Shown here: piece after piece, positions 37,208 to 40,039 of the stretch
Layout of the letters: every line of letters starts with the position of its first letter
Numbering within the stretch: the stretch's first letter is position 1
Source of the DNA: Nitrosospira sp.
GTDB lineage: Bacteria; Pseudomonadota; Gammaproteobacteria; Burkholderiales; Nitrosomonadaceae
DNA length: 64,000 nt
NCBI GenBank assembly: GCA_013821425.1
Contig: JACDGV010000012.1
Location: 1 to 64,000 of the forward strand
Direction of reading: 5' to 3'
Program-made: the position numbers and the translations under genes
The notes under the pieces: model-generated
What the model was told of the DNA's origin: nothing
The model's input: the letters and a program-made list of their open reading frames with translations, nothing else
Database searches by the model: none

Positions 37208-37984
37208 TCAGTTTACAGCCCACAGCCTTTCACTGGTGTCCCGCTTAGCCGGCTCCCGCAAGGGTTCGGTGGCAACGCCGTTCCAGAGCAGACGCTCGTA
37301 CTCATTATTCACGACTGCATAACATTCGCAGACAGAATTTTCCAGTTCTTCACGGTCTACAACGGTAATATGTCCGCGGCTATACCGGATGGCGCCGACT
37401 GTTTGCAATTTAAGCGCGGCCTGAGTCACGCTTTCGCGGCGAACGCCCAGCATAATCGCAATTTGCTCGTGCGTCATCAGCAACTCATAGCCTCGCAACC
37501 GGTCCAGGCTCATCAAAAGGAAACGGGATAGCTGTTGCTCTACATTATGGTGCCGGTTGCAAACGGCATTCTGCGCCGTTTGCGTCATCAATGCCTGTGT
37601 GAAACGCAATACCAAGTCCTGCAGCTTTCCCTTGAAACCGAATTCCTTTCTTAGCGCGTCCGCCTTTACCCGGTATCCATTGCCCGCGCTTTGCACCACC
37701 GCTCCCGCAGGCGTACCGCCTCCACCCAAAAGAAACGACGTGCCGGTGAGCCCCTCATTGCCAATAACAGCAAGCCGCACGGATGCACCATTCTCCATGT
37801 AGTACAGAGGCGCGACAATGCTACTGGCGGGAAAGTACAGGTGAGTTATGGAGGAGCCGGGCTCATAAATGATCTGTCCCAGCGGCATCGGCGTGAATTC
37901 GAGATAAGGGCTAAGTCGTGCATAATCTTCCGCAGGGAGGGCGGCAAGAATTCGGTTTTGCTTCGGGCTCTGTAGTGAAAACAT
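37208..37984 (-). CDS. Crp/Fnr-family transcriptional regulator
   Basis: A 258-residue regulator. The N-terminal half has a cyclic-nucleotide-binding-like beta roll (IIYEPGSSITHLYFPASSIV, key: EPG and YFP). A long dimer helix follows, and the C-terminal winged helix has THEQIAIMLGVRRESVTQAALKLQ (key: GVRRESVT recognition helix) and IRYSRGHITVVDREELE. The N-terminal cysteine cluster of oxygen-sensing FNR is absent and the Arg-Ser cAMP-contact block of true Crp is not seen, so its signal is unknown. It converges with acnA; targets cannot be stated. Confidence 0.88.
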   Translation of the reverse strand: MFSLQSPKQNRILAALPAEDYARLSPYLEFTPMPLGQIIYEPGSSITHLYFPASSIVAPLYYMENGASVRLAVIGNEGLTGTSFLLGGGGTPAGAVVQSAGNGYRVKADALRKEFGFKGKLQDLVLRFTQALMTQTAQNAVCNRHHNVEQQLSRFLLMSLDRLRGYELLMTHEQIAIMLGVRRESVTQAALKLQTVGAIRYSRGHITVVDREELENSVCECYAVVNNEYERLLWNGVATEPLREPAKRDTSERLWAVN

Positions 37985-38522: not shown

Positions 38523-39131
38523 ATGAGTTCAATCCACCGCGCCATAGTCCTGATTATGTCCGTCAGCGTATCTGGTTGCGCGTTCCTTGGTCCTCGCTAC
38601 CAGATAACTCATCGCTATGAACCGCCTACCCATCCCGCAGCTGTTGCGTGCCTGGAGAAGTGCGCCGGACGGCTGAAGTCATGCCAGCAAAGTTGCGCGT
38701 CCACGTACCAGGCGTGCCTGAGAAGGATCGAGCCGCTCGTGGAAGAGCGGTACAATAGCGCCATCCAGCGCTACGAAAGAGAACTCGATACCTATCGACG
38801 GCAAATGAGCCCAAGATATTTGGGCGGAGGACGTGCGATGTTAGGATGGGGACGTTCCGCCTGGGGTTGGGGAGGATATCCGTGGGGTTGGGGTGGGTCG
38901 CCATGGGGCGGGGGGTGGGGAGGACCCTATTATGGACTGGGCTATTCGTATCCCTTCTATTACGCCCCTCCACCGCCATCCAGGCCGAGCCGGGACAGGG
39001 AGTTTGACAGGTTACGCCAGGAGCAGTGTGAGGTGGAATGCGGGTGTCAGTCCGTCCAGGACGCTTGTTTCTTGAGCTGCGGCGGCAGGAAAATCATAGA
39101 AGAACGCTGTATTGCAAATTGTCCCAAGTAA
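38523..39131 (+). CDS. Cys-rich, Gly/Trp-rich lipoprotein, unknown function
   Basis: A 202-residue protein with a lipobox (VSVSGC, lipidated Cys19), so likely anchored in the outer or inner membrane on the periplasmic side. Two cysteine modules flank a central linker. The first has Cys43, 47, 54, 58 and 65 (CX3C-X6-CX3C-X6-C). The second has Cys169, 173, 175, 182, 186, 196 and 200. The linker, residues about 101-150, is dominated by WGWGG-type repeats and Tyr/Pro. Twin-CX3C spacing suggests disulfide-pinned helical hairpins. I do not recognise the family; no operon partner is evident. Confidence 0.75.
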   Translation: MSSIHRAIVLIMSVSVSGCAFLGPRYQITHRYEPPTHPAAVACLEKCAGRLKSCQQSCASTYQACLRRIEPLVEERYNSAIQRYERELDTYRRQMSPRYLGGGRAMLGWGRSAWGWGGYPWGWGGSPWGGGWGGPYYGLGYSYPFYYAPPPPSRPSRDREFDRLRQEQCEVECGCQSVQDACFLSCGGRKIIEERCIANCPK

Positions 39132-39187
39132 GGGAAGAGATCGCTTCCTGACGCTCTGATGGGGAAGGTGAAAGAATTTAGCGAGGG

Positions 39188-40039
39188 TTAACGCTTCCTG
39201 GTGAAACCCCTTGCGCACGCTTCCACATTGTCTATCAAGCGGGTGTTTCCCAGCCGGGCTGCTCCGAGCACTACCAGGTTCCGGTCCCCCTCGCATGCCG
39301 GGGCAAGCGTATCGCGATGCCGCACTGCAATGTAGTCGACTCTCCATCCGCGGTGGCAAAGCGCTTCTTTTGCGTTTTCCTCCAGATCACCAAAACGTGT
39401 GTTGCCGTCCTCTATTCCGCGTTTGACCCGTGCCAATGCCTGATAAAGCCGAGGTGCTTCGGCACGCTCCTCGCTTGTCAGGTAGCGGTTACGGGAGCTT
39501 AATGCCAGATTATCCGGCGCCCGCACGGTTTCTCCCACGACAATTTCCTCCGGAGAGTTAAACTGCCTTACCATCTCGCGCACCATATGAAACTGTTGAT
39601 AATCCTTTTTGCCAAACACCGCGATCTGGGGTTGCACAATATTGAAAAGCTTCAGCACTACCGTGGCCACTCCCTGCAAGAATCCGGGTCGGAATTCGCC
39701 TTCCAGGGTCTCCGCTAGCGGCGGCGGCTTCACCATGAATTCCTGCCGCACGGGGTAGAGAGTGTTTTCGTCGGGAGCGAAAACCACGTCGACGCCCTGT
39801 TGTTGCAATAGCTCGCAGTCCACGGCGAGCATGCGCGGATATCGGTCAAAATCATCCGTTGGTGCAAACTGCAGACGGTTGACAAAAATACTCACCACGC
39901 CGCACTGCGCTTTTTGTTGTGCTAGGCGTACGAGGGATACGTGGCCTTCATGCAAGCCGCCCATGGTCGGCACAAACGCAATGGAGGATTCACGCCTAAG
40001 CCGGGCGCGCATGGATGAGATGTCCGCGATAACTTCCAT
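39188..40039 (-). CDS. panC: pantothenate synthetase
   Basis: A 283-residue pantoate-beta-alanine ligase, the last step of pantothenate synthesis. It has the nucleotidyltransferase VPTMGGLHEGHVSLV (HxGH), SIFVNRLQFAPTDDFDRYPR (key: QFAP.DDF), FGKKDYQQFHMVR and LALSSRNRYLT. It starts MEVIADISSMRARL at 40037-40039. It is 11 bases downstream of panB, so the two are cotranscribed. Confidence 0.96.
   Translation of the reverse strand: MEVIADISSMRARLRRESSIAFVPTMGGLHEGHVSLVRLAQQKAQCGVVSIFVNRLQFAPTDDFDRYPRMLAVDCELLQQQGVDVVFAPDENTLYPVRQEFMVKPPPLAETLEGEFRPGFLQGVATVVLKLFNIVQPQIAVFGKKDYQQFHMVREMVRQFNSPEEIVVGETVRAPDNLALSSRNRYLTSEERAEAPRLYQALARVKRGIEDGNTRFGDLEENAKEALCHRGWRVDYIAVRHRDTLAPACEGDRNLVVLGAARLGNTRLIDNVEACARGFTRKR

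Follow-up and report, generated by a model that had tools for sequence, protein, structure and literature searches.

A Nitrosospira lipoprotein with a predicted disulfide-ladder hairpin and a variable loop, belonging to a protein family absent from the libraries searched

Introduction

In the small Tim and CHCH proteins of mitochondria, pairs of cysteines are carried on two helices and are bonded across them. Two bonds are generally ascribed to these proteins, a number also given in an abstract on CHCHD4. Their motifs are of the twin CX3C or twin CX9C type, according to excerpts of two papers (PMC3759932, PMC12114033). The alpha-hairpinins are plant helix-loop-helix peptides with four or six cysteines; in the sections of the source available, the four-cysteine motif is written CX3C-X4-20-CX3C, and the presence of three or more further cysteines leads to exclusion (PMC11591084). 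Csp1 and Csp3 (DUF326) are four-helix bundles whose thiols bind Cu(I) and which carry a Tat signal when exported, as stated in extracts of PMC12510493.

Here we describe a gene from a window of 64,000 nucleotides of DNA of Nitrosospira, an ammonia oxidiser of soil (contig JACDGV010000012.1), the window being the whole stretch that was analysed. Its product would be a lipoprotein directed to the outer membrane, in which a hairpin of helices is stapled by a ladder of disulfides and presents a loop to a partner in the cell envelope, a reading that we hold at somewhat better than an even chance. The proposed model has in common with the alpha-hairpinins the antiparallel helices and the disulfides running from CX3C to CX3C across a loop (PMC11591084, in part), with the small Tim and CHCH proteins the oxidation outside the reducing cytosol, and with Csp the placement of cysteines on one side of the helices (PMC12510493, in part).

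The differences are as follows. Cysteines 43 to 58 (CX3C-X6-CX3C) fit the alpha-hairpinin motif by their letters, but both CX3C pairs lie here within one predicted helix and not across a loop, which is also how the protein differs from the small Tim and CHCH proteins. The eight further cysteines that follow the lipid-bearing one break the exclusion rule as worded in the available sections of PMC11591084. Whereas the alpha-hairpinins of those sections are short plant peptides with four to six cysteines, we are dealing with a bacterial lipoprotein that has twelve cysteines, five proposed rungs, a gap of 104 residues between its two cysteine modules and a predicted strand at each end; the sequence itself was compared with them through family libraries only. 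In place of the two bonds of the small Tim and CHCH proteins six are proposed, and neither family figures in the 16 that 34 aligned members match in Pfam up to E 1. Finally, the exported Csp of the PMC12510493 extracts has a Tat signal, whereas the protein described here has a lipoprotein signal and no twin arginine.

The gene and its product

Re-reading of the frame (Table 1) confirms the position of the gene and of every cysteine as given in a preliminary description of the DNA. Besides the lipid-bearing Cys19, the protein of 202 amino acids has 12 cysteines, at positions 43, 47, 54, 58 and 65 and at 169, 173, 175, 182, 186, 196 and 200. The gene is under purifying selection: comparison with the orthologue L002 gives dN 0.113 and dS 1.655, the latter near saturation, and against six orthologues of the window's own family dN ranges over 0.11-0.21, dS being higher than 1.6 or too saturated to compute. 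One reverse frame that was translated is interrupted by stops, and the list of open reading frames also holds antisense frames, such as 38626-38979 (117 aa) and 39012-39359 (115 aa). The gene is single-copy, the sole other match in its own genome having E 0.05.

Table 1. Features of the lipoprotein gene and its flanks, in window coordinates
Feature	Coordinates	Strand	Evidence
Lipoprotein gene, 202 codons and stop	38523..39131	+	Open frame; orthologues; purifying selection
Signal peptide with lipobox V-S-G-C19	38523..38579	+	Sequence
Predicted strand 1, residues 25-33	38595..38621	+	AlphaFold models; conservation
Predicted long helix 1, residues 38-95, with Cys43, 47, 54, 58 and 65	38634..38807	+	AlphaFold models; cysteine spacing
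Gly/Trp/Tyr/Pro loop, residues 97-156, variable in length and sequence, low model confidence	38811..38990	+	Composition; alignment; AlphaFold
Predicted helices 2 and 3 (residues 157-172 and 176-185), with Cys169, 173, 175 and 182	38991..39077	+	AlphaFold models
C186-G-G, predicted strand 2 (residues 189-198) and C-terminal Cys196-X3-Cys200	39078..39122	+	AlphaFold model; cysteine table
Crp-type regulator, divergent	37208..37984	-	Pfam HTH_Crp_2; synteny
panC-like gene, convergent	39188..40039	-	Open reading frame list; synteny

The consensus of the lipobox is [LVI]-[ASTVI]-[GAS]-C, and VSGC at residues 16-19 agrees with it, which bears out the earlier assignment as a lipoprotein. The lipobox stands at the end of an N-terminal stretch that has no pair of arginines. 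Comparable lipoboxes are found across the collected relatives, a few of them looser and one sequence (L049) truncated ahead of its box; the Pfam family LPAM_1 matches weakly in 3 of the 34 aligned members (best E 0.096). Under the Lol rule of E. coli, the residue that follows the lipid cysteine, aspartate or not, sets outer-membrane sorting. This residue is alanine in the protein of the window and is aspartate in none of the 59 proteins collected, so that the outer membrane is the expected destination.

The cysteine pattern

The first cysteine module is CX3C-X6-CX3C-X6-C, with five cysteines, and the second is CX3C-X1-C-X6-CX3C-X9-CX3C, with seven. The second is thus longer than the CX3C-X6-CX3C type noted earlier. 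The whole pattern is beyond chance. It did not occur in any of 200,000 residue shuffles of the mature protein, in which five or more CX3C occurred 32 times and a single CX3CX6CX3C 357 times. The window has 540 frames that run from stop to stop over 60 codons or more, and CX3CX6CX3C is found in this one only.

The spacing is kept in distant relatives; a loss of the spacing, named in the preliminary description as grounds for refutation, was not observed. Counted from Cys43, the N-side offsets are 0,4,11,15,22 in 54 of the 59 proteins. None of the 59 lacks C47, C54, C175 or C186; C43 and C182 are each found in 58 (L074 is without the former and L049 without the latter) and C196 and C200 in 57; the two proteins without the latter pair (L100 and L101) keep the ten other cysteines. 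Alignment A2, with 34 proteins, shows no change at 11 of the 12 cysteines, the exception being C182, which is absent in L049; the lipid cysteine, P35 and the two glycines that follow C186 are invariant as well. Alignments A2 and A3 together with the 59 proteins define a signature of the superfamily, which the protein of the window carries: a lipobox, CxxxCx6C in the N-terminal module and Cx6CxxxCGG in the C-terminal one, with C43 in L074 and C182 in L049 as the exceptions.

The C-terminal spacing mirrors the N-terminal one. Counted back from Cys186, the offsets are 0,4,11,13,17 in the window type and 0,4,11,15,20 in most of the short forms that keep C58; in L099 and L129 they are 0,4,11,15,22, the exact mirror of the N side. 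Beyond the lipid cysteine, 56 of the 59 proteins have an even number of cysteines (12 in 47 proteins, 14 in five, 10 in two and 18 in two). The odd totals belong to L049, which has 11 and has lost C182 while keeping C47, and to L061 and L124, which have 13, with one extra cysteine each. Five proteins (L064, L068, L069, L072 and L097) have two added cysteines, both in the loop.

L131 and L132, from genomes G1228 and G1252, have six extra cysteines in the loop with the palindromic spacing 7,4,6,4,7, that is, a mirrored insert of three and three. By its spacing this insert reads as a second stapled mini-hairpin of three rungs.

Predicted fold

AlphaFold was run with two alignments. With A1 the mean pLDDT is 67.0 and the pTM 0.42; with the more diverse A2 they rise to 79.7 and 0.57, and 112 of the 202 residues are at 90 or above. 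Both models have the same main elements (Table 1) around a loose loop: the mature part is predicted to have a long helix, two shorter ones and two strands. In the A2 model, the mean pLDDT of ten-residue blocks is 95-98 over residues 31-90 and 91-96 over residues 151-200, and is below 50 for most of the loop. The model is that of a single domain in which the strands bracket the helices, and all five N-terminal cysteines fall within one continuous predicted helix.

The preliminary description had proposed that two disulfide-bound hairpins are joined by a sticky linker. The 104 residues that separate the two clusters of cysteines speak for this, but the counts of five and seven, the continuous helix through the first module, the single-domain model and the mirrored spacing all speak against it. 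As each module holds an odd number of cysteines, two closed and independent hairpins are impossible if all the cysteines pair, and full pairing needs a bond between the modules. The two modules are thus probably not two separate hairpins, and we regard the proposal of two independent ones as very improbable.

The proposed disulfide ladder

In the ladder proposed instead, five rungs (C43-C186, C47-C182, C54-C175, C58-C173 and C65-C169) would staple the long helix to the two shorter antiparallel helices, and a C196-C200 clasp would close the C-terminal end. The protein would be exported, lipidated at Cys19 and sorted to the outer membrane, where it would face the periplasm, and its cysteines would be oxidised after export by DsbA and DsbB. 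DsbB is encoded in the same genome, which makes periplasmic oxidation plausible. The result would be a hairpin, rigid and stable, that rises from its base at the membrane and carries the flexible, sticky loop at its far end. As a prediction from models and spacing, this architecture is fairly supported.

The geometry of the rungs was evaluated on two ideal straight helices. With the exact-mirror spacing, none of 120 pairings does better than the in-order ladder, whichever the orientation: its rms from the target of 3.8 Å is 0.06 Å, as against 1.78 Å for the next pairing. The parallel arrangement fits as well as the antiparallel one here. Such a fit is weak evidence and only ranks the pairings, since five free parameters stand against five (or three) distances. 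The orientation is judged from the invariant ends, since the antiparallel arrangement sets the invariant 0,4,11 of one side against the invariant 0,4,11 of the other. For the first three N-side rungs taken alone, the antiparallel fit is 0.00 Å in all five type spacings; the parallel one equals it in a single spacing and is 0.74-1.54 Å in the four others. When all the rungs are fitted with the spacing of the window's protein, the values are 0.90 Å antiparallel and 1.44 Å parallel; as helices 2 and 3 are separate in this type, a single straight helix represents them only crudely. The three rungs placed closest to the base (C43-C186, C47-C182 and C54-C175) hold their spacing.

Changes that occur together on the two sides are consistent with the proposed bonds. 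The fourth C-side cysteine is displaced, to an offset of 17-20, in all five proteins without C58 and in none of the 54 with it, where the offset is 13 (43 proteins) or 15 (11 proteins); this correlation represents few independent events, as the five fall into two groups of the core tree. In the forms without C58, rungs 4 and 5 fit straight helices badly (3.2-4.1 Å). A C196-C200 bond agrees with the joint loss of these two cysteines in L100 and L101. Against the ladder stand L074, in which C43 is missing and C186 is kept, L049, in which C47 has lost its proposed partner, and the single extra cysteines of L061 and L124.

The variable loop

The preliminary description had also noted a WGWGG-rich linker. 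A stretch rich in Gly, Trp, Tyr and Pro is indeed there (Gly, Pro, Tyr, Trp and Phe make up 43 of the 61 residues 98-158), but it is not the conserved part of the protein, it is modelled with low confidence and it is replaced elsewhere. Among the aligned relatives, WGWGG repeats occur only in the window's own family, the Nitrosospira relatives. In families f15, f28, f43, f50, f184 and f208 the loop differs and is mostly shorter, though still rich in aromatic residues, Gly and Pro; in many distant relatives it is much shorter. The variants differ between lineages: the loop is aromatic in some, has an extra pair of cysteines in others and an extra insert of six cysteines in two. From these alignments the loop thus appears as a variable tip on a constant frame of cysteines.

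It is conceivable that the protein is a surface-exposed adhesin, with the aromatic loop turned outward and binding surfaces or polymers. Ten proteins (labels f1, f15, f28, f43, f50, f184 and f208), in which W, F, Y, G and P make up a fraction of 0.49-0.72 of the loop, would suit such a role, but no surface-export signal could be recognised by eye. The same fraction is only 0.16-0.24 in L068, L069 and L072 and 0.0 in L130, and since the loop of these four is not aromatic, surface adhesion of this kind is not the common function of the family. We consider the adhesin unlikely.

The case for a function is weaker than that for the structure. In the most likely reading, the protein stands as a stable spike in the periplasm, anchored to the outer membrane, and holds out a variable loop for binding. 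Its job would be structural and adhesive, the loop being shown to an envelope partner such as peptidoglycan, another envelope protein or a polymer; against a binding role of the loop stand the lack of a conserved neighbour and the dispensability of the gene in the genus. More broadly, the relatives may form a Proteobacterial superfamily of outer-membrane lipoproteins built on a five-rung antiparallel disulfide hairpin, a fold that would be without a solved example, with the loop swapped between lineages as an exchangeable binding tip; we put this forward tentatively, as somewhat short of an even chance.

If the ladder is true, it would mean that envelope proteins of a family that is widely scattered and in no catalogue follow a simple design rule, in which the mirror spacing of the cysteines predicts every bond. 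Research on oxidative folding would gain a substrate with six ordered disulfides, and envelope biology a rigid, modular stalk. It would also be a warning that a pair of cysteine motifs joined by a linker may be opposite sides of a single ladder.

Library searches and distribution of the family

The preliminary description could not match the protein to a known family, and the remote homology searches agree, in that nothing convincing was found in Pfam, NCBIfam, PHROGs, the sequences of the PDB or the fold libraries. In Pfam, the protein of the window matches only Vac_Fusion (E 0.24). The best Pfam matches of the 34 members are Strep_SA_rep, which 4 members match (E 0.0008 at best), and MNNL, with 2 (E 0.0045 at best); both were set aside as helix and cysteine bias. 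In NCBIfam, the protein matches amorph_syn at E 0.018, and 4 of the 34 members match the Sbal_3080 family lipoprotein (best E 0.0086). The best match in PHROGs has E 0.055, and in the PDB sequences E 1.8 with the single protein and 0.31 with the profile. Foldseek gave three matches in the PDB (best E 5.9), and a search of viral models gave nine (best E 1.2). Alignment by VIA-align to 12 chains gave a best Z of 4.8, over 73 residues at an rmsd of 5.9, the chain in question coming from an entry for RNA polymerase. Since the loose loop may spoil fold searches, we do not claim that the fold is new. In the open-licence literature, no paper recognisably on the protein or its family was found, nor any on a cysteine-rich lipoprotein of Nitrosospira. 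The protein is real, conserved and without a name in the libraries searched; judged by its sequence, it belongs to a superfamily that is absent from them.

The 59 distinct proteins, the window's included, carry 21 family labels and come from one phylum. Among 150 relatives, 22 genomes match at E 0.001; one of these (G021) has a remnant and another (G145) has no such gene in its frames, which leaves 20. At the level of the order, a 20-row profile (A1) matches 18 of the 399 genomes searched; for the class the figure is 12 of 369, some of these matches being fragmentary or weak, and for the phylum, with the 34-row profile (A2), it is 6 of 398. In a more distant order, searched with a short relative, 10 genomes out of 105 match, and in another order profile A3 finds 3 of 11. 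These tallies include the own genome and also, where there was one, the query genome. The carriers, as listed from 19 loci among 30 candidate stretches, are Nitrosospira, Nitrosovibrio, bins of Nitrosomonadaceae and Nitrosomonadales, Sulfuricella sp. T08, and bins of Proteobacteria and Gammaproteobacteria. No relative was found by tblastn in plasmid records.

Left out of the 59 are duplicates (L001, L019, L020, L023, L024, L026-L040, L045-L047, L075, L096, L102, L103, L123, L134-L136 and L140), a second short match beside the gene of L052 (L063), one gene with a middle of N (L060, L062), fragments (L070, L133), the remnant (L021, L105), a gene not seen in the frames (L022), weak matches (L025, L104, L106, L107) and two further genomes (L137-L139, L141). 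L076-L095 are longer stretches around counted genes, L108-L122 panC loci and L142 the DsbB locus.

Within the genus, to which the window's genome belongs together with the Nitrosospira and Nitrosovibrio genomes, the presence of the gene is patchy. Of 23 genomes (G000-G022), 11 have an intact gene, one (G021) has a remnant broken by stops and 11 have no convincing match, which holds with the profile too; one of these last, G002, is 80% complete. In the window the gene lies between the Crp-type gene and panC, and these two are within about 1.5 kb of each other in G021 and in 10 of the 11 gene-less genomes, panC of the eleventh (G002) being at a contig end. The partial absence together with the remnant indicates that some members of the genus have lost this gene, which cannot then be essential to them; it is dispensable in the genus. 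A partner in ammonia oxidation was also rejected, in view of the 11 genomes without a match, the remnant, and the presence of the gene in Sulfuricella and in distant lineages.

The remnant (G021:C1:1482725-1483015) is at the syntenic site and was found at E 4e-7 by tblastn and 0.011 with the profile. In G016 and G022, a weak trace of 19 residues (E 0.04 and 0.02) lies in the right orientation between the Crp gene and panC (L108 and L110).

Neighbouring genes and rival functions

The neighbours of the gene vary with the lineage, and no conserved gene partner was found among the loci read; the neighbourhood was for this reason rejected as a clue to function. In several Nitrosospira types the gene is surrounded by acnA, the Crp-type gene and panC. 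The Crp-type regulator, whose helix-turn-helix is above the Pfam cut-off and whose nucleotide-binding domain is below it, is not a dedicated partner, since genomes of the genus that lack the lipoprotein gene still have it at this site. The name panC for the convergent gene is presumed from its sequence, and leuS, acnA, thioredoxin and the peptide transporter are likewise names that we take from the sequences. In L092 and L093, a presumed peptide-transporter region surrounds the gene.

An SCO1/SenC-like gene lies opposite the lipoprotein gene in L043, L044, L078 and L080, all of the Sulfuricella type (label f15), identified by Pfam in L043 and by eye in the other loci. In L043 and L080, a small exported protein, which in L043 has no Pfam match, is encoded between the two, and a gene that we take to be thioredoxin-like follows. 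Among the loci read, this neighbourhood occurs only in f15, and L081 and L083 of the same label are without it.

The SCO1/SenC gene could point to a store or chaperone of Cu(I) or another metal, in which reduced cysteines line a helical core as in Csp and supply the copper enzyme of ammonia oxidation. The helices are rich in CX3C, and ammonia oxidisers need copper. The signal, however, is that of a lipoprotein, without a twin arginine; the mature part of 184 residues has only 2 His and 2 Met; and the cysteine totals are even in nearly all members (56 of 59). DUF326 (PF03860) has no match up to E 1 in the 34 aligned members and none in the own genome, the same search matching 1 of 14 genomes, Bacillus subtilis, as the control. 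Moreover, the gene is missing or decayed in 12 of the 23 same-genus genomes and is present in Sulfuricella, which we take to be a non-nitrifier. A metal store is unlikely on these grounds.

The SCO1 and thioredoxin genes near several f15 members, together with the odd cysteine counts of three proteins, could also be explained if part of the ladder were redox-active and cycled as a system of disulfide exchange or sensing. The protein of the window has no CXXC, though, and the restriction of this gene context to f15, where it is again absent from two loci, also argues against such cycling, which we hold to be quite improbable. The structural ladder with its loop remains our preferred reading.

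In L090 and L094, from two distant lineages, the gene adjoins what is presumably leuS; this is perhaps an older gene order. In L087, L088 and L089 (f43), a similar short stretch recurs near the gene, and its translations share GKRLPEVPQF or SRDLKP-like text. This stretch is probably a dispersed repeat.
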